IMG/VR virus record: IMGVR_UViG_3300050821_006672
Location: 45,476 to 109,475 of that record
Reading direction: 5' to 3' (one strand)
Length of the DNA: 64,000 bases
Origin: a virus
Position numbers and translations under genes: made by a program. The notes under the pieces were generated by a model. It was given only the letters and a program-made list of their open reading frames with translations, was not told the origin of the DNA and did no database searches. Every line of letters begins with the position of its first letter. Positions within the stretch are counted from its first letter, which is position 1. Below are positions 14,023-36,807 of the stretch, in pieces.

Positions 14023-14032
14023 GGTGAGACAT

Positions 14033-17732: not shown

Positions 17733-17746
17733 AGGAGGGCCAAACC

Positions 17747-21360: not shown

Positions 21361-21373
21361 CGTATGGTAGAGA

Positions 21374-21505: not shown

Positions 21506-22123
21506 ATGGTAGCCAAGGCTAAGGTAATTCACATCAATGAGCCGACTGATGGGGGCAACGAGGCAATCGGCTATTCGGAACCTTACTCGGTTCGCGTCGC
21601 GCTAGAAGGCGCAGCCGATTACCTGTTTCATCGGTACAACTGCGAATCAGTTGAGGCTAAAAGCAACGCGGCAAAGGGTTCGAAGGCCAAGAAGACTGAC
21701 GACATTGAGAGTTACGTTTGGCGGACGAACGACGGGCAACTTGCCATTCCTGGCGAACATCTTCGCGGAGCGATCATCAAAGCCGCTAAGTTCCGCCAAG
21801 ACCCGCGCTCTCCGCGTAAGTCGGCAATGGATTTGTTTAAGGCCGGCATCGTGGTTACGACAGGATTAGCCCCAGTGGGAAAGAAGGATTGGGATTACCT
21901 CCACAAGGGGCGGGTAGTTGTGCACGGAAGCGCTATCCCCCGCGTCCGTCCTGCGCTTCGGCAGGGTTGGAAGGTAGCTTTTGATGTCTCAGTAATCTTG
22001 CCGGAGTACATTGATAAAAACTCTCTGCGAGAGACTATCGAGGCTGCGGGTCGTCTTTGTGGCCTTGGCGACTATCGACCAACCTTCGGCCGATTTGGGA
22101 TTATTTCTTACCAATCAGCTTAG
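21506..22123 (+). CDS. Unknown conserved phage-type protein under a structured leader
   Basis: 205 residues, ATG 21506, eight bases after GAAGGAG. The N-terminal part (EPYSVRVALEGAADYLFHRY) and C-terminal part (EAAGRLCGLGDYRPTFGRFG) suggest a two-part alpha/beta fold, with a central basic region (SPRKSAMDLFKAGIV) and Trp-containing strands. I do not recognise the family. The GLGDYRP-FGRF ending superficially recalls RAMP-like folds, but no other RAMP features are visible. It stands alone between two G/T-rich segments and two structured leaders, so it is likely regulated separately from the capsid genes. Confidence 0.65.
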   Translation: MVAKAKVIHINEPTDGGNEAIGYSEPYSVRVALEGAADYLFHRYNCESVEAKSNAAKGSKAKKTDDIESYVWRTNDGQLAIPGEHLRGAIIKAAKFRQDPRSPRKSAMDLFKAGIVVTTGLAPVGKKDWDYLHKGRVVVHGSAIPRVRPALRQGWKVAFDVSVILPEYIDKNSLRETIEAAGRLCGLGDYRPTFGRFGIISYQSA

Positions 22124-22215
22124 GTCTGGTGTGGTTAGTTGGGGTCAGGTGGTGTTTGGTAAGATTTGATCGGGTAAGGTAAGGTCTTTGCGTATGTCTA
22201 AGTTAGTCTAGGTTC
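22124..22215 (+). repeat. Second G/T-rich quasi-repetitive segment
   Basis: Directly after the stop at 22123 comes a G/T-rich stretch with repeated GGTGT, AGGT and GTAAGGT words, of the same character as 21141-21360. It ends in a C-rich tract. No gene is seen. The similar material on both sides of one gene suggests duplication or a shared mode of insertion. Confidence 0.4.
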
Positions 22216-22225
22216 TGTTCCCCCA

Positions 22226-22321
22226 GTCCTCCCCCCGCAGCAGGGCCTAGATGTACCCGCGTCGCTCCCTTCCCCCTCCCCCCGAGCCTGGGAGCGACGC
22301 GGGGAACTCTTTCGAGAGGAC
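22226..22321 (+). promoter_or_regulatory. 14-bp hairpin with C-rich loop and SD/anti-SD pair
   Basis: CCCGCGTCGCTCCC (22256-22269) and GGGAGCGACGCGGG (22290-22303) form a perfect 14-bp stem with a 20-base C-rich loop. GTCCTC (22226-22231) upstream is complementary to GAGGAC (22316-22321), which contains the Shine-Dalgarno of the gene at 22328. The hairpin would bring these together. The minus strand of the loop is G-rich and could form a quadruplex. There is no U-tract, so termination is unlikely. Confidence 0.5.
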
Positions 22322-22327
22322 CAGCCC

Positions 22328-22558
22328 ATGATTACAGGGTTATTCACCGATGGGCAGTCCGTTGAACTTTCGCTTCCTTGTGACGCGACACTTGCAGTGC
22401 GTTATCTAGGGAATGAGGACGACGTTCTTGTGCCGAACGGCTCTTGCGGTGTTGTGGTATCAGTGCTTGAGTATAATCTAAATACGTTGGCTACTGTCAA
22501 ATTCGATGGACTCAAGCGTGATCTTGTAATCCCCACCAAGTATTTGAAGGCATGTTGA
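22328..22558 (+). CDS. Small beta-barrel-like protein, unknown
   Basis: 76 residues from ATG 22328 (AGAGGA upstream). Short strands with an SH3-like pattern end in VKFDGLKRDLVIPTKYLKAC, reminiscent of small barrel proteins that bind nucleic acid or peptides. The gene is expressed behind a large hairpin leader. Two bases separate it from the next small gene. No specific function can be given. Confidence 0.5.
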   Translation: MITGLFTDGQSVELSLPCDATLAVRYLGNEDDVLVPNGSCGVVVSVLEYNLNTLATVKFDGLKRDLVIPTKYLKAC

Positions 22559-22559
22559 T

Positions 22560-22712
22560 ATGAGCGAGTGCCTTTTCAAGCTTTCAGAGGCTCACGGAGC
22601 ATGGTGCTACAGTTGGCGGCCTGTTCCTATGGTCGAAGGTGCTCCACGCCTCAAGAAAGTTCCATTTGGCTACGTTTTGATGCGTTACGAAGGGAAGCGT
22701 TTACATGGCTGA
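22560..22712 (+). CDS. Small unknown protein, 50 residues
   Basis: ATG 22560 lies one base after the preceding stop, and the stop at 22710-22712 overlaps the next ATG (22705) by 8 bp, an arrangement that implies coupled translation. The product has a Trp/Tyr-rich N-terminal half (GAWCYSWRPVP) and a basic second half. No motif is recognised. Packing against both neighbours is the main support. Confidence 0.5.
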   Translation: MSECLFKLSEAHGAWCYSWRPVPMVEGAPRLKKVPFGYVLMRYEGKRLHG

Positions 22713-23241
22713 CCGCAAATACCTCCCGACTTTCGCCGATCTCGTTGATAGGCTCTGCATTACGCAGATGAAAGCGATCTTCATCCCTGAACGGCAGGGC
22801 GAATACGTTGAAGAAATGTCGTTGATTATGCATGACATCGATCTTATCTTGGAAAGTCAAGCTAAGACGATTGCCGCTACTGACGTTCGTGCGATGCTTG
22901 TGCTTATGTTGAGCAACCGTTTCATATGGGAGAATGAAACAAAAGCGCGAGCGGGCGGGACGGATCAGGACAAGCTTCTTAAATTGACTCATAGTATAAA
23001 TGGCGTGAGGAATACAGCTAAGAATGCATTGGCCCATATTGATGGCGGTCGGAGAGACTTCAAAACGGATTGCTTTGCTGCGGAGTTAGTTGCTGACTTC
23101 GGTAATTGGAATGTATTTGGAGTGCAGAACGGCGAGGCTCGATGGGAAACCGATCAGAGAAATTATACTCAACTGGCGGATAGACGGGATAAATCTGTGC
23201 ATGGTGGGGCTGGGCGTGTTCTGCCCTCGTCGGATTATTAG
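22705..23241 (+). CDS. Unknown protein, mostly helical
   Basis: 178 residues, ATG 22705. It is predicted mainly alpha-helical with charged amphipathic stretches (QGEYVEEMSLIMHDIDLILE, NETKARAGGTDQDKLLKL) and a more open C-terminus containing RDKSVHGGAG. It precedes the thiamine-diphosphate gene by 5 bp. No known family was recognised. It may be an accessory protein of the sugar island or an unrelated small gene carried with it. Confidence 0.5.
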   Translation: MADRKYLPTFADLVDRLCITQMKAIFIPERQGEYVEEMSLIMHDIDLILESQAKTIAATDVRAMLVLMLSNRFIWENETKARAGGTDQDKLLKLTHSINGVRNTAKNALAHIDGGRRDFKTDCFAAELVADFGNWNVFGVQNGEARWETDQRNYTQLADRRDKSVHGGAGRVLPSSDY

Positions 23242-23246
23242 GCAAG

Positions 23247-23861
23247 ATGCTCCAAATCGTAGCTAGAAACCGAATAACGCGCAGCGACTTGCAGGAGTTT
23301 ACGCAGCGCGTTGCCGACGCGTTCAATGCTGGCGAAATCCACGCTCCCGTCCACCTTAGCGGCGGCAATGAAGATCAGCTGATTGATATCTTCTCGGAGA
23401 TCGCTCCAACCGACTGGGTATGCTCAACATGGCGTAGCCATTATCATGCGATCCTCAAAAACATTCCTCAAGAACAACTGATGTCGGACATTCGTGCGGG
23501 ACGCTCGATCTCATTGTGCTATCCAGAACACCGTCTTATTTCCTCGGCAATTGTTGCGGGCTGTTTGCCCATTGCGGTGGGTCTTGCCTGGTCCATCAAG
23601 AATGCCGAGAAGGATGAGCACGTCTGGGCCTTCTGTGGTGATATGGCAGCGACAACCGGAATATTCTCCGAGTGCACTCGATACGCTGAGAGCTATCGCC
23701 TTCCCGTTACGTTCATAATTGAGGATAATGGCAAGTCGGTCTGTACGAATACCAAACAAGTTTGGAACGGACAACACGATAATTGGCAAAGCAATGTGCG
23801 GTATTACTCCTACAAACTGCCATGGCCCCATAGTGGTGCCGGCAAACGAGTGAACTTCTAA
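23247..23861 (+). CDS. Thiamine-diphosphate enzyme, E1 alpha-type subunit
   Basis: 204 residues with the E1-alpha/transketolase N-terminal fold. TWRSHYHAIL (61-70) is the conserved substrate/diphosphate segment. GDMAATTGIFSECTRYAESY begins at residue 131 and N161 completes the GD-x(~28)-N metal/ThDP motif. Full E1-alpha chains are longer (about 320 residues). The ending PHSGAGKRVNF, however, recalls short E1-alpha-like proteins in surface-polysaccharide clusters, so this is probably a complete member of that type. The partner subunit is encoded at 24791, with two unrelated-looking genes between. Together they would transfer a two-carbon or acyl unit onto a sugar or keto acid. The substrate is unknown. 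Confidence 0.8.
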   Translation: MLQIVARNRITRSDLQEFTQRVADAFNAGEIHAPVHLSGGNEDQLIDIFSEIAPTDWVCSTWRSHYHAILKNIPQEQLMSDIRAGRSISLCYPEHRLISSAIVAGCLPIAVGLAWSIKNAEKDEHVWAFCGDMAATTGIFSECTRYAESYRLPVTFIIEDNGKSVCTNTKQVWNGQHDNWQSNVRYYSYKLPWPHSGAGKRVNF

Positions 23862-23899
23862 CCGGCGAGTGGTGACGCCCCTCTTCCGGGAACAGGAAC

Positions 23900-24484: not shown

Positions 24485-24494
24485 AGAGGCAGTC

Positions 24495-24791
24495 ATGGCA
24501 AGTTCACTTCCGCTCCAATTGAATGAAGACACTATTCCTGTGCTTCTCGCCAGAATGGGGACCCCCCTCAAAGGCGATGGGCAACTCCACCTTATGGCGG
24601 GCATGGCCTTTCGCGTTGGCGACGTACTGTCTGAGGCGTCTGTTACTGCCATAGTTCCGGCTGTTGTAGCTACTCCCGCCAAGAACGGCATTCCTGCTCA
24701 GAACTTTACGGCGAGCGAGGCTGCTTTGCTTGTAGCGGAATTGCACAATAGAGGGGCGACTGTGGAAAGTAAGGGGAAGAGCAAAAGGTAG
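24495..24791 (+). CDS. Unknown small protein
   Basis: 98 residues, AGAGAGG before ATG 24495. The first half is mixed and hydrophobic (LLARMGTPLKGDGQLHLMAG). The second contains NFTASEAALLVAELHNRGA and ends in a basic tail. Its TAG overlaps the GTG of the E1-beta gene by one base. No motif is recognised. Confidence 0.5.
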   Translation: MASSLPLQLNEDTIPVLLARMGTPLKGDGQLHLMAGMAFRVGDVLSEASVTAIVPAVVATPAKNGIPAQNFTASEAALLVAELHNRGATVESKGKSKR

Positions 24792-25312
24792 TGGGCTACT
24801 TTTCCAACCTCTGCGCTGCGATGCAACTAGTCAGCGAGCATCCGCAGTCTGTCTTTATGGGACAAGCGGTTGCGTGCGAAGGAACGGCTATGTTCCGCAC
24901 GCTCGCTGATGTTCCAATAGAAAAGCGCCTTGAACTACCAGTCGTTGAAGATATGCAGATGGGGATGGCAATTGGCATGTCCCTTAGCGGCCATCTCCCC
25001 GTTTGTATCTATCCAAGGTTCAATTTCCTGCTTCTCGCGCTGAATCAGCTTGTTCTGCACCTCGACAAGCTGCCTTTAATGGGCGATTACAAGCCGAAGG
25101 TGCTTGTCAGAACGGCTGTAGCAACCTCGAAGCCGCTTTACCCTGGGCCGCAGCACATCGGAAACTACACGACTGCGCTCGCACATATGCTGGATACAGT
25201 AGCTATTGACCGGCTTGAGCACGCAGATGATATTGTCCCCGCGTATGAAAGAGCGTTGGGGCGCGACGGTTCGACGCTCTTAATCGAATATCATGAGAAA
25301 TACGACGCTTAG
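24791..25312 (+). CDS. Thiamine-diphosphate enzyme, E1 beta/transketolase pyrimidine-binding subunit
   Basis: 173 residues from GTG 24791. The sequence follows the pyrimidine-binding domain (PF02779): GQAVACEGTA near residue 24, then LPVVEDMQMGMAIGMSLSGH (49-68), where E53 is at the position of the catalytic Glu that activates ThDP, and an aromatic-rich YPRFNFLLLALNQLVLH. GPQHIGN (119-125) matches the conserved His loop. The C-terminal swivel domain of classical E1-beta is absent, as in small two-subunit ThDP enzymes of polysaccharide clusters. It would pair with 23247-23861. Confidence 0.78.
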   Translation: MGYFSNLCAAMQLVSEHPQSVFMGQAVACEGTAMFRTLADVPIEKRLELPVVEDMQMGMAIGMSLSGHLPVCIYPRFNFLLLALNQLVLHLDKLPLMGDYKPKVLVRTAVATSKPLYPGPQHIGNYTTALAHMLDTVAIDRLEHADDIVPAYERALGRDGSTLLIEYHEKYDA

Positions 25313-25323
25313 GGAGGTGCTTG

Positions 25324-26091
25324 GTGATACCTCGGAATAAAGACACGCTCTTCTATTTCAATGCGCTTAGGCTGTTGCCGCGACGCGCCTATGGCGTTGT
25401 ATACTTACTTACGAACATAGACACGGGGCGATCTTATGTAGGGCAGACTACACAAGCCGTTCCTTTTGATCGAATATTTACACATCGAAAGAGCGCCCTA
25501 AGCGGGAATAGCAGTAACATCCTGCATCGGGCCATACGAAAGTACGGTTGGTCGGCATTTCGAATTGAAATTATTGCCAACTGCGATAACCGAAAAGCGT
25601 TGGATGCTGCTGAAGCGTATTTTATTGAACTATACCAGACGATGTCCCCAAACGGCTATAATATGAAGCATGGGGGTGCCAAAGGGCGATTTTCTGAACA
25701 ATTTAAGCGCAAGCTTCGAAGAGTCCACTCTGCTCCTAAAGTCAGCCAAAAGCATCGAGAAACTATCACTGCATGTTGGGCCGACCCAGCGCATATGGCG
25801 AAGCTAAAAGTAACTTGGAAGGTCAAAAATGCTTTGTCGGCTCCCGCACGCGCAGAAAAGAAGCGTGTTAAAAGGGAAGCGTGGATAGCTACTAAGCCCG
25901 AGCGCCTTGCTAAGAAAAATGCAGCTATAAAAGCTGCGCATAGCAGGCCTGAGGTAAAAGAAAAAGTCGGACGTGGTACAAGAAATAGCCGATGGATTTG
26001 TAGGGGGATAGCGTCGCAACGATTAAAGCTGGGAGAACCCCTTCCTAAGGGTTGGAATTTCGGAAGGGGAGCTTCTTATGAGCGCTCGTGA
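25324..26091 (+). CDS. GIY-YIG homing endonuclease
   Basis: About 255 residues, GTG 25324 behind GGGAGGT (TTG 25321 is also possible). The N-terminal GIY-YIG nuclease domain shows GVVYLLTN (residues ~24-31), SYVGQTT (~37-43), R and H in FDRIFTHRKSA, the catalytic Glu in AAEAYFIELY and NGYNMKHGG. The basic C-terminal half (FSEQFKRKLRRVHSAPKVSQ and following) resembles NUMOD-type DNA-binding repeats. Such free-standing nucleases spread between phages by cutting alleles that lack them. It sits between the ThDP and DegT genes and overlaps the latter by 14 bp. Confidence 0.88.
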   Translation: MIPRNKDTLFYFNALRLLPRRAYGVVYLLTNIDTGRSYVGQTTQAVPFDRIFTHRKSALSGNSSNILHRAIRKYGWSAFRIEIIANCDNRKALDAAEAYFIELYQTMSPNGYNMKHGGAKGRFSEQFKRKLRRVHSAPKVSQKHRETITACWADPAHMAKLKVTWKVKNALSAPARAEKKRVKREAWIATKPERLAKKNAAIKAAHSRPEVKEKVGRGTRNSRWICRGIASQRLKLGEPLPKGWNFGRGASYERS

Positions 26092-27211
26092 ATTTTGGTT
26101 TCCTACTGGGTTCAAATATTGGGGAGTGGAAGAAGACGAAGCCATTGCTAGAGTGATATCTAGCGGCTGGTTTACATACGGCAAAGAGGTTGCAGCTTTT
26201 GAAGAAGAGTACGCTGCTTACCACAAGCGCAAGTATGCGGTTATGGTGAATAGCGGCAGTTCCGCTAACTTGATTGCTGTAGCTGCTCTTTGTAATTTGC
26301 GATCTCGAAAGCCGTTATCCCGCGGGGATACGGCCCTTGTTCCCGCGGTTGCTTGGTCAACAACCTATGCTCCCTTAATACAGCACGGTCTAGAATTGCG
26401 GCTGCTTGACGTAGACGATACTTGGAATGCATATCCTTATGGGGGTACTGAGTCCTTTAGGCTAATCGTCGGGTGCTCCATATTAGGTAGTCCTGCTCGA
26501 CTGGAAGAATGCCAAAAGTTTGCCAACCGTAACGGAGCGTATTTCATCAATGATGACTGCGAATCTCTAGGTGCCTCGATTGGAGGACGAACAACCGCAT
26601 CTTTCGGTTTGATGGCAACCAGTAGTTTCTTCGCTTCCCATCAGATATCTGCTATCGAGGGCGGCGCTATTTTGACAGATGAGGATGAATGCTATAGACT
26701 TTGTCGTATGCTGCGCAGCCATGGGTGGACGCGAGACGTTGAGCCTCCAAAGAACTTTGATGAAGAATATTCGTTCGAACTTTTCGGTCTAAATGTTCGT
26801 CCAGTCGAGATGCACGCGGCTATAGCTCGGGAGCAGTTGAAGAAGCTTTCACATATGATCGATGCACGTCAGAAGAACTTGGATCATTTTTGGAGGCTGA
26901 TGCAGGGCCTACCAATCGCATTGCAGGGTCATTATCTAGGGACTAAGCGATCGTCCTTTGGCATCGCCTTTACGGTAGCGAACAAGAACATTCGATCTAA
27001 GCTGGCCGACGCGCTACGCGCTGAGGATATTGACTGTCGCTTACCCACGGGAGGGTCATTCCGTATGCATAAGTATGGTGAGCGGTGGAGAGCGCAGGCA
27101 ACGCCTAATGCTGACCGCATCCACGAGACTGGGTTGTTCCTTGGGCTTGCGCCGTTCCCAATTGAGGATAAAATCGAGCGTGCTGTGAATGTTATGAAGG
27201 GGGTATTGTGA
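26078..27211 (+). CDS. DegT/DnrJ/EryC1 family PLP enzyme with His at the lysine site: sugar 3-dehydrase type
   Basis: 377 residues, ATG 26078 with GGAAGGGGAG inside the preceding gene. GSSANL (60-65), the FINDDCESLGA segment (157-167) and SSFFASHQISAIEGGAI (182-198) identify the DegT family. Position 188, normally the PLP-binding Lys, is His. This substitution is diagnostic of the E1/ColD type, which removes the 3-hydroxyl of NDP-4-keto-6-deoxy sugars using PMP instead of transaminating. A nearby RSHGWTRD is typical of the same branch. The product would be a 3-deoxy-4-keto sugar. No ferredoxin-like E3 reductase is encoded here, so a ColD-like or host-assisted mechanism is implied. Confidence 0.85.
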   Translation: MSAREFWFPTGFKYWGVEEDEAIARVISSGWFTYGKEVAAFEEEYAAYHKRKYAVMVNSGSSANLIAVAALCNLRSRKPLSRGDTALVPAVAWSTTYAPLIQHGLELRLLDVDDTWNAYPYGGTESFRLIVGCSILGSPARLEECQKFANRNGAYFINDDCESLGASIGGRTTASFGLMATSSFFASHQISAIEGGAILTDEDECYRLCRMLRSHGWTRDVEPPKNFDEEYSFELFGLNVRPVEMHAAIAREQLKKLSHMIDARQKNLDHFWRLMQGLPIALQGHYLGTKRSSFGIAFTVANKNIRSKLADALRAEDIDCRLPTGGSFRMHKYGERWRAQATPNADRIHETGLFLGLAPFPIEDKIERAVNVMKGVL

Positions 27212-27354
27212 TGTCTCGTCCTAAAGCATCCTACCGTGCCGAGCGACGACGTACTTGTCGCCAAATGCGAATGATTTGGAGCGAATTTCAAAAGCGCCAC
27301 CCAGTAGAATCGCTGCGACCTAAGAAGAAACAATACAAAGGGACATCAGGCTGA
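27211..27354 (+). CDS. Tiny basic protein
   Basis: 47 residues, ATG 27211 overlapping the previous TGA (TGATG) and with a TGATG junction to the next frame. Very basic (MSRPKASYRAERRRTCRQMR and a Lys-rich end), which suggests nucleic-acid or membrane-surface binding. Unknown family. Support is the coupled start-stop arrangement on both sides. Confidence 0.4.
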   Translation: MSRPKASYRAERRRTCRQMRMIWSEFQKRHPVESLRPKKKQYKGTSG

Positions 27355-27452
27355 TGTCTCTTATGCAAGGTGTCGTTGTAGGATTATTGATAGAGGCCGA
27401 AGCGGTAGTTATTACCTTGCTGATTTTTCATCTTTTTGGAGCTTTGTGGTGA
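27354..27452 (+). CDS. Tiny membrane peptide
   Basis: 32 residues, ATG 27354 within TGATG. Almost the whole peptide is one hydrophobic helix (GVVVGLLIEAEAVVITLLIF). The stop overlaps the next ATG. Either a small membrane protein or a spacer in a chain of coupled frames. Function unknown. Confidence 0.35.
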   Translation: MSLMQGVVVGLLIEAEAVVITLLIFHLFGALW

Positions 27453-27757
27453 TGTTAAGCAGATTTTGGTTTTGGGTTAATCGTATTGACATAATTTCGG
27501 AGGCTGAGGGCGAAGACTGGGCGCGTGAGTGGATGCGAGAACACGGTTGTAAGTGGAACGGGTTTTGTAGTTACTGGTTCAAATGGGAAGAGGTGCTTAA
27601 TGATGAGGTTCGACAAGGATTAAAGCCTGAGCCGCTTTTATGGCAAATTCAACGCGAGAGTACGCAGCGAAAACGTAGGCGTCGCGATAAATACGATTGC
27701 TGGGATCGGCTAATCGGTAACGACCTCTTCGATACCATTCACGGTGGTATTTTCTGA
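27452..27757 (+). CDS. Unknown Trp-rich, basic protein
   Basis: 101 residues, ATG 27452 (TGATG overlap; an upstream GTG at 27446 is less likely). Tryptophan-rich N-terminal half (FWFWVNR, AREWMREHGCKWNGFCSYWF) and a basic middle (STQRKRRRRDKYDCWDRL). It ends in a TGATG overlap with the epimerase gene. No recognisable family. Confidence 0.5.
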   Translation: MLSRFWFWVNRIDIISEAEGEDWAREWMREHGCKWNGFCSYWFKWEEVLNDEVRQGLKPEPLLWQIQRESTQRKRRRRDKYDCWDRLIGNDLFDTIHGGIF

Positions 27758-28731
27758 TGCGCTGTTTGATAACTGGCGGCGCTGGCTTCATCGGTAGCGT
27801 TCTCGTCCCCTCCCTTCTCAACGAAGGCTTCGCTGTTACTGTCGTTGATAACTTTATGTATGGCAACTCGCTATCGCTAGCGGCTTGTTGTACCCATTCC
27901 AAATTCGACGTTATCCGAGGCGATGCGCGCGATCCAAGGGTAATCGGCCCGCTGCTCGCTAAGCACGATGTAATTATTCCCCTTGCTGCGATCGTCGGCG
28001 CTCCTGCTTGCGATAACGATGTGTGCGCTACGGGGACAACGAATGTCGTTGCTATCGAGAATATGGTATCGAAGCTTTCCGCCGACCAATGGATTATCGC
28101 GCCTATCACTAACAGTGGCTATGGGATCGGTTCGCAGGACGAGTGCACCGAGGAATCGCCTCTGAACCCCGTCAGTCTTTACGGAAAGTCAAAGGTCGAA
28201 GCAGAGAAGGCAGTTCTCAGCCACAAGAATGGGATTAGCCTGCGCCTTGCGACGGTGTTTGGTATGTCGCCTCGGATGCGTCGTGACCTGCTGGTGAACG
28301 ATTTTGTCTGGCGTGCTGTAACCGACCGCGCGGTGACGTTGTTTGAGGCCCATTTCCGCCGTAACTACGTGCACGTGCGAGATGTGGCTAGGGCCTTTTT
28401 GCATGTATTTAGCTGTTTTGCTGGTGAGGAAAATAAGTATCTAGCAGTTCTTCCTCCTGTGGGCCTTCCGCTTGCGTCAGGCGCTTACAACATTGGTCTT
28501 AGCGATGCCAATCTGTCCAAGCTCCAGCTTTGCGAAAAGATCAAAGAACACGTTCCCGGCTTTGTGTTCTGGGAAGCGCCTGTGGGTGAGGATGCGGACA
28601 AGCGCGATTACGTCGTAAGCAACAAGAAGATCGAAGCCACTGGATTTCGATGTGAGTACAGCCTGGACGACGGTATTCGCGAGCTAGCCAAAGGCTATCG
28701 GATGATGCGGAGGGAGTACTCGAATGTATAA
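27757..28731 (+). CDS. NAD-dependent epimerase/dehydratase (extended SDR)
   Basis: 324 residues. ITGGAGFIGS (5-14) is the Rossmann GxxGxxG, and D31 is the acidic residue that selects NAD. The catalytic triad is visible as the Ser in PITNSGYG (S120) and YGKSK (Y142, K146). NIGLSDAN and a sugar-binding C-terminal region follow. Extended SDRs epimerise, dehydrate or reduce nucleotide sugars. In this island it probably prepares or reduces the intermediate made by the DegT-type dehydrase. The exact reaction cannot be read from sequence. Confidence 0.88.
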   Translation: MRCLITGGAGFIGSVLVPSLLNEGFAVTVVDNFMYGNSLSLAACCTHSKFDVIRGDARDPRVIGPLLAKHDVIIPLAAIVGAPACDNDVCATGTTNVVAIENMVSKLSADQWIIAPITNSGYGIGSQDECTEESPLNPVSLYGKSKVEAEKAVLSHKNGISLRLATVFGMSPRMRRDLLVNDFVWRAVTDRAVTLFEAHFRRNYVHVRDVARAFLHVFSCFAGEENKYLAVLPPVGLPLASGAYNIGLSDANLSKLQLCEKIKEHVPGFVFWEAPVGEDADKRDYVVSNKKIEATGFRCEYSLDDGIRELAKGYRMMRREYSNV

Positions 28732-29041: not shown

Positions 29042-29077
29042 GTTCGTTTGGGAAGGGACTGACGAGAAGGTGGGGGC

Positions 29078-29332
29078 GTGAGTATTAAGCTAGCCAAGCC
29101 TGAGCACGAGGTTCTTTATCAGGATTTGTGTAATCTTGTTGGTAAGCACGGGGATAAAGTTGATGCATTTGAAATGCTGGCGATTGCGGCGAATATGATA
29201 GGCAAGCTTATTGCTATGCAGGACCAGAGGAAGATTACAAGGGAAATGGCGCTAGATTTGGTAATTCGGAATATTGAAGAAGGGAATAAACAAGTGCTGG
29301 AGCAGCTACATAATACTGTTGGGCGAGGGTAA
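29078..29332 (+). CDS. Unknown small helical protein
   Basis: 84 residues, GTG 29078 with GAAGGTGGGG just upstream. All-helical pattern (EHEVLYQDLCNLVGKHGDKV, FEMLAIAANMIGKLIAMQDQ, MALDLVIRNIEEGNKQ), similar in feel to small phage proteins of the DUF-type helical bundle. It ends five bases before the radical SAM start. Function unknown. Confidence 0.5.
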   Translation: MSIKLAKPEHEVLYQDLCNLVGKHGDKVDAFEMLAIAANMIGKLIAMQDQRKITREMALDLVIRNIEEGNKQVLEQLHNTVGRG

Positions 29333-29336
29333 ACAG

Positions 29337-30854
29337 ATGTATGAAGCAGACGCTCTCGTCGGTGACAACTACAGCTACGATCTCGCTATTATTCACCCGT
29401 GGCCTCGCGGTATTTATAGTCACCTTGAAGACGAGTTCGCAGCGGTCGAGCCGCCTTTGTGGGTGCGACTTATTGGGGGATACATTCGCGACCAGCGCTA
29501 TTCGGTTGCAGTCATCGATCAGGAAGCCGAACAGCTCAACGATGTCCAGGTAGCGGCAAGGGTCTTTTCCTATCGACCTCGTGTCGTCGCTATCGTCGCT
29601 TACGGCCATCAGCCTTCGGCCTCTACTCAACAAATGGTCGGAGTTCGCAGTGTTGCGAAAGCCGTGCGGACCGTAACCCCCGCGAAGATCATTATTGTAG
29701 GAGGTCACGTTTCGGCGCTTCCCGAGCGCACGCTGAAAGAGGAAAGCGTTGATTATGCTTGCGTGGGGGAAGGTCCGTTGACTATCCTTGGACTTTTGCA
29801 AGAGAAAGTCCTTGGCGAAATCCCTGGGTTGGTATGGCGAGATAGCGAGCAGAAGGCTGTTAAAAATATGCCAGCAATGCTTTTGGAGCCCTACTTTCTC
29901 CGCGGAAGCCTGTGGGACAAATTACCGCTCCAACGCTACCGCGCCCATAATTGGCAATGTTTCGGTGATATCTCCGCGCGCCAGCCCTATGCTTCAATCT
30001 ACACAAGTCTGGGGTGTCCCTTCAAATGTCACTTTTGTTGTATCAACGCGCCCTTTGGGAACAGCAGCTACCGGCTCCGATCTCCTGTGGACGTAGTAGA
30101 GGAAGTTGACCGTTTATACAGGTATGACGGCGTCAAGACGTTCAAAATTATTGACGAGATGTTTGTTCTTAATCCAAAGCACTACGTCGCGATTGCGGAA
30201 GGCTTATCCGCCCTGCCCTTCGCAGACGATCTGAATTTCTGGGCTTACGCTCGCGTCGATACCGTTAAGGAAGGGCATCTAGCGCTCTTGCGAAAAGCAG
30301 GCATCCGTTGGCTGGCATTAGGTATTGAGTCGGCAAGTCAGTACGTCCGCGACGGCGCTGACAAGCGCTACTCCAACGAGGATATCGCCGAGGTCGTACG
30401 TGCGGTGCAGAAGGCTGGGATCAATGTCATCGCCAATTATATTTTTGGCCTGCCCGATGATGACCTCAATTCGATGCGAGCCACCCTGCAAATGGCGTGC
30501 GATCTCAATACCGAGTTCGCTAATTTCTACTCAGCGATGGCCTATCCTGGCTCTCCGCTATACCAGCAGGCTTTGTCGGAGGGGTGGAAGCTACCGGAGA
30601 CATGGGCAGGCTATTCACAACACAGTTACGAGACTTATCCGCTGCGGACGAAGCATGTAGATGCGGCGACCGTACTGAAATTCCGGGACGAAGCATTTGA
30701 CATCTACTTTACTCGTCCTGATTATCTCGACATGCTCTTGGATAAGTTCGGTATCGAAGCTGTTGAGCACGTCCAGCGTATGACCAAGAGTAAGCTGAAG
30801 CGTCGCCTGTTGGAAGATACTTACGCTCCGAAAGAGCGAGTGTCGTCGCATTGA
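29337..30854 (+). CDS. B12-binding domain / radical SAM enzyme
   Basis: 505 residues from ATG 29337 (GCGAGGG upstream; a longer in-frame start would overlap the previous gene). Residues ~15-160 form a cobalamin-binding-like Rossmann domain (AKIIIVGGHVSALPERTL, DYACVGEGP). C227, C231 and C234 in SLGCPFKCHFCC are the CxxxCxxC [4Fe-4S] site of radical SAM enzymes, followed by the FKIIDEMFVLN and WLALGIESASQ strands. B12-dependent radical SAM enzymes methylate unactivated carbons or rearrange carbon skeletons. In this cassette a C-methylation or ring modification of a sugar is plausible. Confidence 0.88.
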   Translation: MYEADALVGDNYSYDLAIIHPWPRGIYSHLEDEFAAVEPPLWVRLIGGYIRDQRYSVAVIDQEAEQLNDVQVAARVFSYRPRVVAIVAYGHQPSASTQQMVGVRSVAKAVRTVTPAKIIIVGGHVSALPERTLKEESVDYACVGEGPLTILGLLQEKVLGEIPGLVWRDSEQKAVKNMPAMLLEPYFLRGSLWDKLPLQRYRAHNWQCFGDISARQPYASIYTSLGCPFKCHFCCINAPFGNSSYRLRSPVDVVEEVDRLYRYDGVKTFKIIDEMFVLNPKHYVAIAEGLSALPFADDLNFWAYARVDTVKEGHLALLRKAGIRWLALGIESASQYVRDGADKRYSNEDIAEVVRAVQKAGINVIANYIFGLPDDDLNSMRATLQMACDLNTEFANFYSAMAYPGSPLYQQALSEGWKLPETWAGYSQHSYETYPLRTKHVDAATVLKFRDEAFDIYFTRPDYLDMLLDKFGIEAVEHVQRMTKSKLKRRLLEDTYAPKERVSSH

Positions 30855-31210
30855 CCCCCGTCTACCAAACGAAATCGGGTCCAGAGGTCGGCAACTGTTA
30901 TCAAGCCTCGGTTGCCAGCCTTTTGGGCCTTCCTCTCGAAGATGTTCCTGACTTTGGGCAAGAGGATGATCCAGAGCGATCCTATAAAGACTTTGTCTAC
31001 GGGCTCGGTTTTGTTGTGCTCAAACCACCGATTACTCTTAAGCCGAATTGCTATTACCTCGCTTTTGGACCCTCGATTGTTACTGGACGGCCGCACGTTG
31101 TCGTCTATCGCGCCGGTCGTCTCGAACACGATCCCCACAAGGGCCGTAACGGATTGAGTTCGGTTGAGGTAATTCACCTATTGGTTCCGATGGAGATTGA
31201 TCTGTCGTGA
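30851..31210 (+). CDS. Papain-like/C39-like small protein
   Basis: 119 residues from TTG 30851, overlapping the previous stop. VGNCYQASVASLLGL places Cys16 at the start of a helix, GRPHVVVY gives His82 on a strand, and LEHDPHKGRN gives Asp94, a Cys-His-Asp order typical of papain-fold peptidases. Phage proteins of this small type are known but their substrates are not. It sits between radical SAM and hydrolase genes. A role as a peptidase or a degenerate binding domain are both possible. Confidence 0.6.
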   Translation: MTPVYQTKSGPEVGNCYQASVASLLGLPLEDVPDFGQEDDPERSYKDFVYGLGFVVLKPPITLKPNCYYLAFGPSIVTGRPHVVVYRAGRLEHDPHKGRNGLSSVEVIHLLVPMEIDLS

Positions 31211-31920
31211 GCTTAGCGACTGACGGAGGCTTTTGGGAATTGAAGGACGGCGATTGGCACGGTCCTGACGTTATCGAGCATTTGATAGATGCCGAGACTT
31301 GCGTCGTTGCTTTTGCCTCAAACGAGGGCGAGTTCTCTGTCGAGATGCCTCATTTTGAATTCGGTAAGACGTTGCGGGGAATGGGCGTTGCTTACGTCCT
31401 AGTACGAGACTCCACAGGCTATCGGCAGCATTACGGTATTCAAGGTATTGGAGATCGCGCAGCTGTTGTAAGTTACCTGCTTCAACTTGGCGATAAGTAT
31501 CAACGCTTAGTCCTAGTCGGTCTGTCCTCCGGCGCGCTAGCTGCAATGATGTACGGTCAGCTGATGGCAATGGATGCACTATTTATTCACGACGGTTTAG
31601 AAGTCATTGCGATCTCGCCTTATAGCGACGTAGGCGATCCTCCTGGCGCGTATGGTAAAGATTGGCAATCTCGCGGACCTTGGGACGTGTTGAGTATGAG
31701 TTTACTATCAGACATCAAGCCTATCTTCGAGGGCGGTCCCAAAGTAAAAATCCGAGCATTCTACAGTGACGGCATTGGGACGGAGTATGACTTTGAGCAG
31801 GCGCATCGGATTGGAGTTACTGACTTGACGCTAGTTCCTGGAGCTTCCCACTCTGGACTAGGGAAGCTTATGCGCGACAAGGGCTTGCTGCAAAAGGTAT
31901 TGCTGGGGAAACAGACTTGA
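31207..31920 (+). CDS. Alpha/beta-hydrolase-fold protein
   Basis: 237 residues, GTG 31207 overlapping the previous gene. VLVGLSSGALAAMM holds the nucleophile elbow G-L-S107-S-G, an acidic loop (YSDGIGTEYD) follows, and LVPGASHSGLGKL provides the late His. These give a Ser-Asp-His triad on an esterase/lipase-like fold. It could remove or transfer an acyl group on the sugar product or the cell surface. No signal peptide, so cytoplasmic. Confidence 0.65.
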   Translation: MSLATDGGFWELKDGDWHGPDVIEHLIDAETCVVAFASNEGEFSVEMPHFEFGKTLRGMGVAYVLVRDSTGYRQHYGIQGIGDRAAVVSYLLQLGDKYQRLVLVGLSSGALAAMMYGQLMAMDALFIHDGLEVIAISPYSDVGDPPGAYGKDWQSRGPWDVLSMSLLSDIKPIFEGGPKVKIRAFYSDGIGTEYDFEQAHRIGVTDLTLVPGASHSGLGKLMRDKGLLQKVLLGKQT

Positions 31921-32819
31921 GAGTTGTCGTCCTTACTACTCACACTAACAACACGCCGATCTTGTATTCGGCGCTGGCGGCAAGTCGTAGTGTTTCCGTC
32001 ATCACTTACGATCGAATGCACTCTTTCGACTATTTGTCGGAACAGGTGGAGCAACTCAATCCCGACTGGGTTCTCTACATCGGCGCTATTCCCGAACACC
32101 ATCGCTTGCGTGTTCCGTCTATTCCCGAGTTGAAGGCAATCCAACGCAAGAAAGTTCACTTATGCTGTGATGGTGCTGACGATGCGTGGTGGTCTCTTCT
32201 GGGTGATTACCATACCCACAACGTCTTCGATTTGCAGATCAATATTGATGGTGTGAAAGCCGGACCTATTGGCGATCACGGCTGGACGACTATCGCCCCG
32301 ATCGATCCTTCAGGCTTTGGCGAGCCCATTCCCTGGTCGCAGCGTAAGACGTTCGCAGGCTTTGCAGGATTAGTGATGGGGGGTGACCGTGCTGAGACGT
32401 TACGAGCCCTAGTCGCCAAAGATTTGATTACTTACCGCTCTCGCGATGAAAAAGGCTCTGGCGATTATATCAGTTGGTTGAAGGATTGCTGCGTAATTTG
32501 GAATCATCCCGAGACCGGGGGAATGAAATCTCAGCACGTCAAGGCTCGTGTAATTGAAGCGGCGTTGGCTGGATGTCTTGTGCTGGAGAAATTGGGTTCG
32601 CCCTTAGAAAATTGGTTTGAACCGGGAATTGAATACTTTGAATGGATAGACGTTGAGCAGATTGTCTTGATATTGGATTGGGTTAAAGAGAACCCCTCCT
32701 ATGCTGAGAGCCATGCGCGTAGAATGCGTAATAAAATACTTACTCAGTACAACGTCGAGACTTTCTGGCAGCGTGTCGAGCGGCGGATAGGAGTTAGGGA
32801 TTTGGAATGCGTGGCTTGA
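31917..32819 (+). CDS. Glycosyltransferase-like protein, first of a tandem pair
   Basis: 300 residues from TTG 31917. KKVHLCCDGADDAWW (residues ~78-92), IAPIDPSGFGEPIPW and the C-terminal HVKARVIEAALAGCLVLE correspond to a GT-B fold half. The last is the classic R-x-x-EAAL-x-G-x-x-x-xE motif of Glyco_trans_1-type enzymes that binds the nucleotide sugar. It is a clear paralogue of the next gene, sharing the CxDxxD..WW region, IDP/PW and HVK-R-EAALAG motifs. It likely transfers the sugar made by this island. The acceptor is unknown. Confidence 0.7.
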   Translation: MRVVVLTTHTNNTPILYSALAASRSVSVITYDRMHSFDYLSEQVEQLNPDWVLYIGAIPEHHRLRVPSIPELKAIQRKKVHLCCDGADDAWWSLLGDYHTHNVFDLQINIDGVKAGPIGDHGWTTIAPIDPSGFGEPIPWSQRKTFAGFAGLVMGGDRAETLRALVAKDLITYRSRDEKGSGDYISWLKDCCVIWNHPETGGMKSQHVKARVIEAALAGCLVLEKLGSPLENWFEPGIEYFEWIDVEQIVLILDWVKENPSYAESHARRMRNKILTQYNVETFWQRVERRIGVRDLECVA

Positions 32820-33691
32820 TTTTTACGACCGGTTCTCGCGATACCGAGAAGATGTATCAATCTTTTACCTACCAATATCCAGACTCTATGGTTGTCCAAT
32901 ACGACAAGCCTAACCTTGATATGGTGCACATTGCTCAGTCGTTTAGGCCGGATATTATCGTTTGGATTGGCGCGCATCGCGGCTCGCATCACATTCCCGG
33001 CGTGCGTCCAGTTCCCGATACGGCAGAACTCGTGCGCGTTGGACGGGTTGCGCCGATGGTTCATCTGTGTCCGGACTCAGGCGACACGCCTTGGTGGCCT
33101 GAGATCGAGGATTTCCATCGGGCCGGTGCTTTCCGTCTTCAAGTAGGAATTGATGGGTGCCACGACTCGCCTATCGCCAGCTTCGGGATGGTAGCGCTTA
33201 CCCCAATTGATCCCGCTTTCTTCCCTGATGTGCCTTGGGAGCATAAAATCTACAGATGCGGTTTCTCTGGCGGCGGGGGCTTTCGAGAGCAGATGCTTAA
33301 TGGTCTTCAACAAAGAGGCTTTTTGACCCGCTTTCAGGATAGTTCCTACAAGGATATGTGCATTTCCTACACACAGTGTAAACTGATCCTTAACGATGCA
33401 CGGACGGGCACAGGCACCAAGCGCCACGTCAAGGGAAGGTTTGTAGAGGCTGCATTAGCCGGCGCGGTTCCTATTGAGCCCCACGATGCCCCGACGCATA
33501 ATTGGTTCAAGCCCGGTGAAGAGTACTTGGTGTGGGCGAACGAAGGCGAAATTGAAGCGCATATTGGCAGAGTGCCTGAGTTAGACGAACAGTATCGCGC
33601 TATGGCTGCGAACCTGCGCAAGCGTATGATAGAAGAGCACTCGGCCCCCGTGTTTTGGGGCAAGGTGCTTAAAAGGATGGGGTTGCAATGA
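32807..33691 (+). CDS. Glycosyltransferase-like protein, second of a tandem pair
   Basis: 294 residues, ATG 32807, overlapping its paralogue by 13 bp. PMVHLCPDSGDTPWWPEIED, ALTPIDPAFFPDVPWEHKIY and KRHVKGRFVEAALAGAVPIE align with the same places in the protein upstream. The pair probably arose by tandem duplication and then diverged in acceptor or donor choice. The C-terminal motif R-F-V-EAALAG-x-x-x-IE supports sugar-nucleotide binding. Confidence 0.7.
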   Translation: MRGLIFTTGSRDTEKMYQSFTYQYPDSMVVQYDKPNLDMVHIAQSFRPDIIVWIGAHRGSHHIPGVRPVPDTAELVRVGRVAPMVHLCPDSGDTPWWPEIEDFHRAGAFRLQVGIDGCHDSPIASFGMVALTPIDPAFFPDVPWEHKIYRCGFSGGGGFREQMLNGLQQRGFLTRFQDSSYKDMCISYTQCKLILNDARTGTGTKRHVKGRFVEAALAGAVPIEPHDAPTHNWFKPGEEYLVWANEGEIEAHIGRVPELDEQYRAMAANLRKRMIEEHSAPVFWGKVLKRMGLQ

Positions 33692-33858
33692 CTCCTTACG
33701 AACGAGCGCAGATACGCTTGCAGGCATTTAAGCTTTTAGCGGGGTGGGGCACCACCTTTCCTGGTGCAGAAAAATTGGAAGATCGATTTAAGCCCTGGGA
33801 ATTGGAAAAATTAAAAAGTGAAGCCACTGTGCTCGCTGATTGGGCGGTTAGTCCTTGA
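33688..33858 (+). CDS. Small charged protein
   Basis: 56 residues, ATG 33688, whose first bases overlap the TGA of the glycosyltransferase (ATGA). Helical and charged (YERAQIRLQAFKLL, KLEDRFKPWELEKLKSEA). The stop overlaps the TTG of the next gene. No family recognised. Confidence 0.4.
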   Translation: MTPYERAQIRLQAFKLLAGWGTTFPGAEKLEDRFKPWELEKLKSEATVLADWAVSP

Positions 33859-35021
33859 TCTTCAACTTTTCGCTTTACAACTACACTCCTGGCGGCTTTG
33901 GGACGTATGAGGATATCATTCGTCCAATCAAAGCTATTCTGGAGGATTTGGGGCACGTCGTTACCCGTGATAATACGCTGCATCCGCCCCCGATTATCAA
34001 CATCCTGTTTGAAGGCTTCGACCAGCCAGTTAACCTAGATGTTCTTAAGCGGGCTCGCGCTGTTGGGTACCGTTTTGTGCTTGTGGCAACAGAAATGCCT
34101 ACCCACAAGACAGACCATTCATTCTATTGGAACGATCATCGCATTACGTATTGGCTGGATCGAGCGAGCGGGTTCGTTGTGGCGCTGCCTTACGCTGATG
34201 CTGTTTGGTGTGTGGTTCAAGGAACTGCTGAGTACCTTCGCAAATTTCATCCCCATACGGCCGATATTGAGTTGGGGTATAGTCCTCGACTGGTAAATTC
34301 AACCCGTGTTGAACCTCATTACAACTTTTGTATCTATGGCTCGCCTTCTGAACGACGTTTCGAGATTACGGCTCAGCTGCGTAGTAGAGGGCACGGAGTA
34401 ATTGAGAACTACACATTTCCCTTTGTTGAAGAGCGTAATCGCCTAGTGTTATCATCGCGGGTTGTTTTGGACGTCAAGCTTAAGCCTCACCTAACAGTTG
34501 TTTCTACGTCACGCATCGTTACGTCACTCCATCTGGGCCGGCCTTGCATCTCGGAACCGCGCGGACCAGAAGCTACCCAAGTGCAGCGGTGGAAGCGCGC
34601 TACGAGGTTTGCTTACAGTGACGATACGTTTATCGATGAGGCTATTTCTATGTTGCCTCACTGGAGAGAGGGCCATCGCGAGCAGTTCGAGGCTCTAAGA
34701 AACATGCAGGCGATTGACATTCTCAACGACGCAGTCAAGATTATCCCCGACAAATTCCCCGACGTTGTCGAGGGTGTATTTCAGATGCCGTTGCCTGGGA
34801 AGGTGCTAACTATCCATCAAGCTTCTGCGCCAGATAGCGCAAGTCCATATTTGCTGTGTTCTTACAACTACCACAATATAGTCGCTTATGGGCACGAGTA
34901 CTTTGTGATACCGCAGGGGATTGGTGAGGTCAATCTAGCATTAGCGATTGATCGCGCTCGGCCTGGCATCCAGCGTTTTCCTTCCGAGCACGAGGCTAAG
35001 ATGGCTGTGGGGGCGATATGA
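33855..35021 (+). CDS. Glycosyltransferase-like protein with C-terminal HNIVxY module
   Basis: 388 residues from TTG 33855. NILFEGFDQPV, FVLVATEMPTHKTDH and TSLHLGRPCISEP match the paralogue at 38379-39395 (NIIVEGF, ICIATEEPT, ALHLGRPVVAEP) and suggest a GT-B-like fold. Residues ~328-385 form a separate module, PYLLCSYNYHNIVAYGHEYF continuing to a VIPQ..G..DRARP pattern. This module recurs at the N-terminus of the ParA-like ATPase at 43907. A role in sugar transfer fits the context, but catalytic residues are not certain. Confidence 0.6.
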   Translation: MIFNFSLYNYTPGGFGTYEDIIRPIKAILEDLGHVVTRDNTLHPPPIINILFEGFDQPVNLDVLKRARAVGYRFVLVATEMPTHKTDHSFYWNDHRITYWLDRASGFVVALPYADAVWCVVQGTAEYLRKFHPHTADIELGYSPRLVNSTRVEPHYNFCIYGSPSERRFEITAQLRSRGHGVIENYTFPFVEERNRLVLSSRVVLDVKLKPHLTVVSTSRIVTSLHLGRPCISEPRGPEATQVQRWKRATRFAYSDDTFIDEAISMLPHWREGHREQFEALRNMQAIDILNDAVKIIPDKFPDVVEGVFQMPLPGKVLTIHQASAPDSASPYLLCSYNYHNIVAYGHEYFVIPQGIGEVNLALAIDRARPGIQRFPSEHEAKMAVGAI

Positions 35022-36040
35022 AGGTCGGGTTGGCAAATCAATTAGAACCTACTCGGTTCGACGAAGCGGTCGCTTTGGGCGAGCGGATTATTGAGTCCGT
35101 AGAGACGCGACCTCAGCTTATTGAAAAACTTGGCGTTGATCCTAGGTTTGGCTTTCCTGATGCAAATTGGCATCCTAAAGAGCAAAACGATTTCCGCGAG
35201 GGATACAATCTTCTTGCTACGCTCAAATGGGACGAGGTCAAATACTTGCGCTTTCGGGCGCAGAATTTCAATGGGTTTAGCTTACTGCATATGGCCTATG
35301 GTGTTGGGAGTTCTAGTGAGCCAATACCTGTTGACTACGATACGCGGTTGTCAGAAGAGTGTTTGGATGACTTGGTTGGACGTTGGCGTGAGAGAATTAC
35401 GGGGCTTCCTCTTCAATTTATATTTCGTCCAAAAGCAATGCTTGGCGAGGTTGGCTGGCAATGGTTTGATGCTTCGGTTACGGGTGTACTGATCAATGCC
35501 GACACTGTTGCGTATCAGGAGCGGATGTTTTTACTGTACAATGGTGCATTGCTGGAAACCCCGGATAAGGTATTAGAGATTGGTGGGGGGTATGGAGCAC
35601 TTGCCTACGCCATAACTAACGGCCTTCCTGAAACCGAGTATTGGATTTGTGACTTGCCTGAGTCGCTTCTGTTCTCTGGCTTGTACTTGACGATGACTAC
35701 GAATCGAGATGTAAAGCTTTGGCCTGAACGCGGCTCAATCACGCTAGTCCCTAATTATCTATTCGGACAGATCAAAGACAAATTCGATTTGTTTATCAAC
35801 ACACTTTCTCTAGCCGAGATGACTGAATATCAGGTTAGGATGTACGTGCAAGGAATACGCGACCTGATGAGCCCTGGAGCTAAGTTCTTCGAACAGAACC
35901 ACCTCAACAACGATCTACCGGACGGTACTCACCAAGCTACAGTGAAGCAGATTTGTGCTGAGACATTCTCGGGAAGGACTAGCCTTCTTCATACGCCTTT
36001 TGAGATACTCAACGGTCCTGCCGACGTGTGGAGTACGTAA
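35018..36040 (+). CDS. SAM-dependent methyltransferase, putative sugar O-methyltransferase
   Basis: 340 residues, ATG 35018 (ATGA overlap). KVLEIGGGYGALAYAI (184-199) is methyltransferase motif I and YWICDLPE supplies the acidic residue after strand 2. The long N-terminal helical region and the C-terminal FEQNHLNNDL resemble putative sugar O-methyltransferases found in surface-polysaccharide loci. It would cap or decorate the sugar. Target inferred from context. Confidence 0.78.
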   Translation: MKVGLANQLEPTRFDEAVALGERIIESVETRPQLIEKLGVDPRFGFPDANWHPKEQNDFREGYNLLATLKWDEVKYLRFRAQNFNGFSLLHMAYGVGSSSEPIPVDYDTRLSEECLDDLVGRWRERITGLPLQFIFRPKAMLGEVGWQWFDASVTGVLINADTVAYQERMFLLYNGALLETPDKVLEIGGGYGALAYAITNGLPETEYWICDLPESLLFSGLYLTMTTNRDVKLWPERGSITLVPNYLFGQIKDKFDLFINTLSLAEMTEYQVRMYVQGIRDLMSPGAKFFEQNHLNNDLPDGTHQATVKQICAETFSGRTSLLHTPFEILNGPADVWST

Positions 36041-36807
36041 TGGCTGACGCTCCCGATCCGCTTTTCCTTTTGCAGCAGGACGGCATTTACGTGCCGTCTG
36101 AGCCTGTACTATCTCTAACGCAGGCTTTCGAATTCCGTTCCTATCTCAGCAGCGTCCCGGTTTACAGGCATCACATAGCGGGCAAGGCGACGGAGTCAGC
36201 CCCTAATTTTGCAACGGCCTGGAAACAGGGATGGTCAGTGTTCGCTCCTAAGACGGAAGACGTCATCAAAGCGCCACACTGGTTCGAAACTGCGCTATCC
36301 TACATGTCCCTTGCCAAAGCCTATTTTCGTCAGCAGCCGCGTATGTATTCGATAAGCGCCTTCTGGACGACGCCGGCTGAAGGTCCGTTGTATGGCGATA
36401 CGCAGACTTGGCATCGCGATCAGGATGACAAGTTCCAAATGACGCTGTTTATGTTGGGCTCTGATGTGCCCGATCCTTCTGAGGGGGCGCACTTATATCA
36501 GCGGGGTACGCATAGGACACCTGACGCAGACTTAGGGCGTGACCCTCCTTCGCCGCCCCCCTGCGGTATCGTTTCTACTGTCTACGGGCCTGCTGGAACG
36601 CTCGTCGTTGCAGATACCTGGGGATTACACAAGGCCATTAGGCCAGCTAAGCTGCCCCGCTTACTTGTGTGGGCACGGTATGCAGTCGCCAATCCGCCCT
36701 TCACGTATGTTAACGATGGGCTCGCTCCGGTGAGTAGGGATTTGTTGGGCGACCGCTATCCGACCGATCCGGAGCTTCAGGAAGCAGTGAGGCTTGTCGC
36801 GGTATAG
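36040..36807 (+). CDS. PhyH-type Fe(II)/2-oxoglutarate oxygenase
   Basis: 255 residues. ATG 36040 is chosen because it overlaps the preceding TAA (TAATG); GTG 36028 is also in frame. The facial triad is visible as H125-x-D127 in TWHRDQDD and H197 in WGLHKAIRP, with R201 placed to bind 2-oxoglutarate. The DGIYVPSEPV start fits the PhyH family. Such enzymes hydroxylate small molecules or sugars. In this island it is likely a tailoring enzyme. Confidence 0.8.
   Translation: MADAPDPLFLLQQDGIYVPSEPVLSLTQAFEFRSYLSSVPVYRHHIAGKATESAPNFATAWKQGWSVFAPKTEDVIKAPHWFETALSYMSLAKAYFRQQPRMYSISAFWTTPAEGPLYGDTQTWHRDQDDKFQMTLFMLGSDVPDPSEGAHLYQRGTHRTPDADLGRDPPSPPPCGIVSTVYGPAGTLVVADTWGLHKAIRPAKLPRLLVWARYAVANPPFTYVNDGLAPVSRDLLGDRYPTDPELQEAVRLVAV

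Follow-up and report, generated by a model that had tools for sequence, protein, structure and literature searches.

Analysis of a 64,000-nucleotide stretch of virus DNA (the window; bases 45476 to 109475 of the 109,475-base IMG/VR record IMGVR_UViG_3300050821_006672, here G000) revealed an island within the head-tail connector genes that includes a conserved six-gene cassette predicted to act on nucleotide sugars. For these six genes, a coherent and co-inherited sugar pathway is strongly supported by sequence comparison, because phages conserve both their content and their order, and five of them, the enzymes, recur in bacterial clusters. The fuller reading, which in our judgement is about evenly balanced, is that the phage carries a pathway that would modify guanosine diphosphate heptose (GDP-heptose) into a sugar branched at C4, to be attached most probably to virion proteins.

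The cassette is ordered in the window as follows: a conserved protein, w22705; the alpha and beta halves of a thiamine diphosphate (ThDP) enzyme; a ColD-like 3-dehydratase; a short-chain dehydrogenase/reductase (SDR); and a B12-binding radical S-adenosylmethionine (SAM) protein (Table 1). By sequence, the five enzymes have intact catalytic residues, and they are kept together and in order with w22705. The alpha half, which matches pyruvate dehydrogenase E1-alpha in profile searches, contains the cofactor motif GD131-132...N161, with G131, D132, and N161 invariant among the aligned relatives. Glu53 of the beta half is likewise invariant among its aligned relatives and was paired by eye with the catalytic glutamate of E1-beta, an equivalence that is our own reading. 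Both halves are short (approximately 200 residues for alpha and 175 for beta, the latter having 173 amino acids), and both match phrog_34187, the beta half aligning with the second half of that family (E 2e-22). This family is the fused form of the alpha and beta proteins, found at 149421-150629 of cyanophage S-SM2; its function is unknown, and its cyanophage annotation reads only “transketolase central region-containing.”

The closest relative of the dehydratase in the PDB is WbdK/ColD (E 3e-65), followed by the RfbH type (the Fe-S enzyme RfbH/E1; E 7e-30). Its His188 aligns with the active-site histidine of ColD, which replaces the pyridoxal phosphate (PLP)-binding lysine of the aminotransferases, and essentially all phage and bacterial relatives have histidine and not lysine at this site. 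The SDR is far closer to 6vo6/6vo8 than to the next solved structure (E 3e-20), and its Rossmann motif GGAGFIG and catalytic YGKSK (YxxxK) align with the sequence of 6vo6. The reading frame of the radical SAM protein opens at 29274, with an ATG at 29337. It presents CxxxCxxC at the cluster site, with C216, C220, and C223 invariant among the aligned relatives; every NCBIfam equivalog match fell far below its cutoff, and none placed the protein in a named class such as methylase, AprD4, or HpnJ. The first gene, w22705, is also first in the relatives, ahead of alpha in the lineage of this phage. Its homologues (39 sequences after thinning) come from viral loci, the only setting in which it was seen among the loci fetched, and it had no match in the phage collection, in PHROGs, or in the PDB by sequence and fold. 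Assignment of a function by fold was attempted and set aside, as the model is helical and has no confident structural match.

A scan with the dehydratase gave three first relatives, all of which carry ThDP alpha and beta, the dehydratase, the SDR, and the B12-radical SAM gene together. When the scans were widened, alpha matched 105 viral stretches (of which the best 80 were used) and the radical SAM protein 67 viral loci; bacterial genomes contributed the best 80 of 110 matching stretches. Gene order was counted after merging the loci of one contig; these loci are not independent, having been found by searches with the same genes. The order alpha-beta-dehydratase-SDR-B12 on one strand was found in 14 phage loci, SDR-B12-alpha-beta-dehydratase in 11 loci, and B12-alpha-beta-dehydratase-SDR in 11 bacterial loci. 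The glycosyltransferase of the tail module (38379) served as a second bait, chosen so that the cassette itself would not bias the selection. The test covered 15 records of at least 29 kb (G000, G002 to G007, G009, G010, G013, G015, G020, and G022 to G024), of which 11 came from this bait, G000 is the record of the window, and G022 to G024 were added as cassette carriers. The radical SAM protein and the dehydratase are present in all 15 and alpha in 13, alpha not being found in the 72-kb records G007 and G009. The bait records that lack the cassette are all fragments below 29 kb.

The same five enzymes recur in bacterial clusters, observed in Nitrospira, Verrucomicrobia, and Rhodospirillales, and one of these clusters lies beside an apparent ATP-binding cassette (ABC)-type polysaccharide exporter. 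A kinase and a nucleotidyltransferase of the HddA/HddC type accompany the cassette in bacteria and in relatives of the phage. The tree of radical SAM proteins has 124 rows, none of them the sequence of the window itself; in it, 20 phage sequences, including those of G001, G002, and G003 from this lineage, cluster together (support 91) and adjoin 21 alphaproteobacterial sequences, mostly from Rhodospirillales; further phage groups are separate, for example, one with Pelagibacter. Flagellin glycosylation was considered as the bacterial role and rejected as a general link, with flagellar genes near the cluster in only 2 of 20 alphaproteobacterial genomes (FliF approximately 6 kb away in G029 and flagellin approximately 14 kb away in G025).

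The right part of the record is a myovirus structural module. The last 60 bases of the record recur at offset 11 of its start; the genome is therefore probably complete. Megablast retrieved no close named phage for this virus, and a scan with the 1,067-residue protease protein as the query gave zero matches. An earlier note on this DNA, made without database searches, had claimed that the DUF4054 head-completion gene and the neck gene are normally adjacent and are separated here by about 15.8 kb. This is borne out: 15,844 bp separate them in the window, whereas the distance between match ends is 17 bp in L330, 44 bp in L340, 83 bp in L339, and 198 bp in L332, L333, and L334, and in G002 the neck gene also follows closely behind DUF4054. 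The connector site thus has both an empty and an occupied form. Over much of the interval the genes overlap by 1 to 14 bases, as in an operon. The GC content at third codon positions is 0.54 in the island and 0.58 in its flanks, and codon use is similar; recent import, for which composition gives no sign, was discarded, and because composition differs so little from the flanks, the cassette has probably been resident in phages for a long time.

The note's tie between island and connector holds for only part of the lineage. In G000, G004, G010, G022, G023, and G024, the cassette occupies the space between DUF4054 and the neck/transferase genes. In G001, G005, and G013 it comes immediately after the transferase, and in the fragment G006 it is upstream of that gene; six records (G002, G003, G007, G009, G015, and G020) have it far from the connector. 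The feature is genuine and more sharply defined than in the note: a conserved, mobile pathway unit. The island itself is not one block. An HddA-like heptose kinase was found in 5 of 16 cassette phages (G002, G003, G007, G009, and G015), all with the cassette far from the connector; an HddC-like nucleotidyltransferase was additionally found in G002 and G003, the latter with a GmhA-like match as well. The supply of GDP-heptose is therefore partly phage encoded in some cases, and other phages, including that of the window, must draw on the host.

In the proposed pathway, GDP-heptose would come from the host, and the SDR would first oxidize its C4. The cassette contains no 4,6-dehydratase, an absence that would be explained by the SDR itself performing this oxidation. 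The ColD-like enzyme, which would use pyridoxamine phosphate (PMP) and glutamate, would then remove the C3 hydroxyl to give GDP-3-deoxy-4-keto-heptose. Cj1427 and a C3-dehydratase, with PLP and glutamate, form GDP-D-glycero-3-deoxy-4-keto-heptose in vitro (PMC10680097), and C3 dehydration of GDP-heptose occurs naturally in Campylobacter serotype HS:5 (PMC10440746). Addition of a branch at C4 would be the natural next step because enzymes of the alphaKADH2 superfamily (ThDP enzymes of the E1-alpha/beta type) transfer two-carbon units from pyruvate onto keto sugars at C3 or C4 (PMC12247030). The small alpha/beta enzyme is thus predicted to decarboxylate pyruvate, or another 2-oxo acid, and to place a two-carbon unit on the C4 ketone, yielding a C4-branched sugar of nine carbons. 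The radical SAM protein would tailor this product, C-methylation being a guess, as would PhyH-like and methyltransferase proteins in some phages. Finally, soluble GT-B transferases, above all 38379, would attach the sugar, most probably to virion proteins of the same late operon. Campylobacter enzymes provide an in vitro precedent for the first two steps; the branch, the tailoring, and the target are inferred.

Several points weigh against this pathway. All enzyme activities are predicted. The donor of the branch, the final target, and the parts played by w22705 and the radical SAM protein are hypothetical. The ThDP halves lack the C-terminal domains of E1, and the beta half falls short of a full E1-beta, which includes the transketolase C-terminal domain. 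Their kinship with AviB and KbDH is putative. The structure 6vo6, which we take to be Campylobacter Cj1427, is labeled in the database only as a “putative sugar-nucleotide epimerase/dehydratase.” Finally, no heptose kinase or nucleotidyltransferase was detected in the phage of the window, and the substrate could be another GDP sugar.

Among possible targets, virion protein ranks first, with about half of the weight, followed by the host envelope, with DNA least. A virion target is favored because a lineage-wide GT-B protein usually stands beside the neck and sheath genes, the island has a late-operon position, none of its proteins resembles a multi-pass flippase, polymerase, or GtrC-type membrane protein, and mycobacteriophages provide a precedent. 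Except for the precedent, the same observations argue against the host envelope, where the same sugar would be fed into lipopolysaccharide (LPS) or capsule assembly, masking the receptor and blocking superinfection. We regard this as a rather unlikely alternative, which nevertheless draws on the polysaccharide-type setting of the bacterial homologues, on cyanophages S-SM2 and P-TIM68, which hold the fused ThDP enzyme within large sugar and phosphoheptose clusters, and on the core LPS transferases, which are likewise soluble.

A hexose substrate is improbable. The starting compound would then be the host's GDP-4-keto-6-deoxymannose, as in colitose synthesis, and the SDR, like its counterpart in the making of yersiniose, would reduce the side chain once it had been attached. 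This would suit ColD, which itself works on a hexose, and the lack of a heptose kinase in the phage of the window and 10 other cassette phages, but no reductase or epimerase comes nearly as close to the SDR as 6vo6 does, and the HddA/HddC-type genes travel with the cassette.

Glycosylation of modified bases in the phage DNA is very improbable, even though the model of 38379 has its highest TM-score (0.59) with the T4 DNA alpha-glucosyltransferase. The whole record contains no protein of the thymidylate synthase/dCMP hydroxymethylase family, and genes in its left arm, outside the window (G000 20716-23149), point instead to 7-deazaguanine: FolE (GTP cyclohydrolase I; E 7e-64), QueC (E 6.5e-54), and a QueD-like 6-pyruvoyltetrahydropterin synthase (PTPS; E 8e-16). 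This preQ0-type set is probably a pathway for 7-deazaguanine modification of DNA. Elsewhere in G000, also outside the window, intein-type domain matches occur at 15016-18537 and 12612-14627, in a uracil-DNA glycosylase (UDG)/DNA polymerase A protein and a clamp-loader-like protein.

A chance collection of unrelated morons at an insertion hot spot, as the interspersed endonuclease, virion-like, and unknown genes and the differing accessories of the relatives might suggest, is a scarcely credible account of the island and is largely refuted for the six-gene core, which has a shared distribution, stays together in the same order at several places in the genomes, and has five members that recur together in bacteria.

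Table 1. Features of the island and its structural surroundings (positions in the window)
Feature	Position	Strand	Evidence or remark
Portal	1164		Structural module
Head maturation protease with NUDIX-like N-terminal region	14529-17732		Single 1,067-residue protein
Major head protein	18760		Structural module
DUF4054 head-completion protein	20709..21140	+	PF13262 E 6e-16; left border of interval
phrog_4652 conserved phage protein	21506-22123		Function unknown; directly after DUF4054
Cassette gene 1, w22705, conserved helical protein	22705..23241	+	Function unknown; directly upstream of ThDP alpha
Cassette gene 2, ThDP alpha half (E1-alpha-like, PP domain)	23247..23861	+	PF00676 E 1e-13
Virion-like protein	23900		Inside interval
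Virion-like protein	24495		Inside interval
Cassette gene 3, ThDP beta half (transketolase Pyr domain only)	24791..25312	+	PF02779 E 5e-4, below curated cutoff
GIY-YIG endonuclease, mobile intruder within cassette	25321..26091	+	PF01541 E 1e-7
Cassette gene 4, ColD-like PMP-dependent GDP-4-keto-sugar 3-dehydratase (predicted)	26078..27211	+	PF01041 E 5e-58
Cassette gene 5, SDR, predicted Cj1427-type GDP-heptose C4-dehydrogenase	27757..28731	+	PDB 6vo6/6vo8 E 1e-92
Cassette gene 6, cobalamin-binding radical SAM	29337..30854	+	PF04055 E 4e-18; PF02310 E 6e-17
Alpha/beta-hydrolase-like accessory	31207..31920	+	Weak Pfam match, E 0.007
Accessory glycosyltransferase 1	31917..32819	+	PF13524 (Glyco_trans_1_2) E 1e-8
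Accessory glycosyltransferase 2	32807..33691	+	PF13524 (Glyco_trans_1_2) E 8e-10
Glycosyltransferase 3, GT-B-like	33855..35021	+	No Pfam match; paralogue of 38379, 28% identity
Probable SAM methyltransferase, accessory	35018..36040	+	PF00891 E 0.001, weak
PhyH-like Fe(II)/2-oxoglutarate oxygenase, accessory	36028..36807	+	Motif only (HxD...H...R set)
Neck/tail completion (“tail completion or Neck1”)	36985..37509	+	phrog_222 E 6e-45; right border
GT-B glycosyltransferase of tail module	38379..39395	+	AlphaFold pLDDT 91; Foldseek
Tail sheath	40960-42900		Structural module

The coherent pathway described in the earlier note extended to the whole interval, which also holds small open reading frames and genes unrelated to sugars; it stands for the six-gene core, around which the methyltransferase, the PhyH-like protein, the alpha/beta hydrolase, and two transferases form a variable accessory set. 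Of the enzymes it listed, the ThDP subunits, dehydratase, SDR, B12/radical SAM protein, and two transferases are recovered by Pfam, the methyltransferase only weakly, and the PhyH oxygenase not at all at a threshold of 0.1. The PhyH-like protein retains H129, D131, H201, and R211, a HxD...H facial triad with a distal arginine, invariant in nine homologues, and its best PDB match in a profile search is an oxidase/hydroxylase (E 0.12). The PhyH-like, methyltransferase, and hydrolase genes are found in some relatives only, the last having homologues in three cassette phages. Glycosyltransferases 1 and 2 are paralogues (32%), and the second has 26 distinct homologues among the fetched loci. The third, also named in the note, owes its assignment to its paralogue 38379, the AlphaFold model of which is GT-B. 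The closest Foldseek match of this model by E value is PimB' (E 3.5e-7), a GDP-mannose enzyme, and homologues of 38379 occur lineage-wide in 21 viral loci, usually beside neck or sheath genes.

A domain of approximately 57 residues (HNxVxYxxxYYVVPQxxG) occupies residues 330 to 386 of transferase 3 and the start of an ATPase-like protein (43907-44824); it also occurs in G003 (46175-47428) and in a bacterial protein of L303 beside the same sugar cluster. A glycine/threonine-rich repeat domain (GSIAGTTLTVT...GTYTVSPSQ), possibly a surface or glycan-bearing domain, is apparently inserted in several virion proteins of the lineage (40960-42900, 40180-40944, 39697-40071, and 5425-10227). In G001, HNH-like reading frames (identified by reading) lie within the cassette at 15949-16485 and 20589-21179, and the GIY-YIG gene of the window is at a different place.

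Nucleotide-sugar islands of phages are already known, with products that are mostly unknown; the conserved cassette described here allows a product prediction. Within the papers searched, there was neither a published description of this cassette nor any account of similar cassettes or of GDP-heptose in phages. Its genes are distinctive enough that an expected intermediate, GDP-3-deoxy-4-keto-heptose, can be named, together with a product class, C4-branched nine-carbon 3-deoxyheptoses, which to our knowledge has not been described from any virus. If correct, the prediction would give a function to phrog_34187 and to the bacterial cluster of Nitrospira, Verrucomicrobia, and Rhodospirillales and would tell what a large environmental phage group puts on its particles or its host. 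In its boldest form, which we offer tentatively and consider doubtful, the lineage would make its own sugar of this class as a coat for its virions, phrog_34187 and its kin would be minimal ThDP sugar-branching enzymes, and w22705 would be a new phage-specific partner.

The nearest known systems are the capsular heptose pathways of Campylobacter jejuni, which share the 6vo6-type SDR and the ColD-like C3-dehydratase (the Cj1427 C4-dehydrogenase and the HS:5 C3-dehydratase) and resemble those phages in which GDP-heptose precursor genes go with the cassette. In contrast, the phage core yielded no C3/C5 epimerase or C4 reductase; it has the ThDP pair and the B12-radical SAM protein instead and is phage encoded. 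The alphaKADH2 enzymes of branched-sugar antibiotics (KbDH alpha/beta, of the aldgamycin, trioxacarcin, and avilamycin type) are likewise two-subunit E1-alpha/beta-like ThDP proteins beside enzymes of deoxy-keto nucleotide sugars, and the phage pair has both the ThDP motif in alpha and the glutamate in beta; the phage halves differ in being minimal, in lacking the transketolase C-terminal domain, in their phage/Gram-negative setting, and in that their activity is predicted. In the yersiniose A pathway, too, a ThDP enzyme acts after a 3-dehydratase and branches a keto sugar at C4, but this enzyme, YerE, unlike the phage pair, is a single-chain decarboxylase-type enzyme acting on a cytidine diphosphate (CDP)-hexose. 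Cyanophages S-SM2 and P-TIM68 carry nucleotide-sugar islands with the fused alpha/beta enzyme and phosphoheptose genes, whereas the search there gave no relative of the B12-radical SAM protein at comparable similarity, and the gene neighbors differ. We know of no dedicated cassette for an unusual sugar in mycobacteriophage virion glycosylation. Che8 and related mycobacteriophages do share phage glycosyltransferases, for which decoration of virion proteins has been demonstrated or suggested (PMC11256854); the glycan of the present phage is a prediction.

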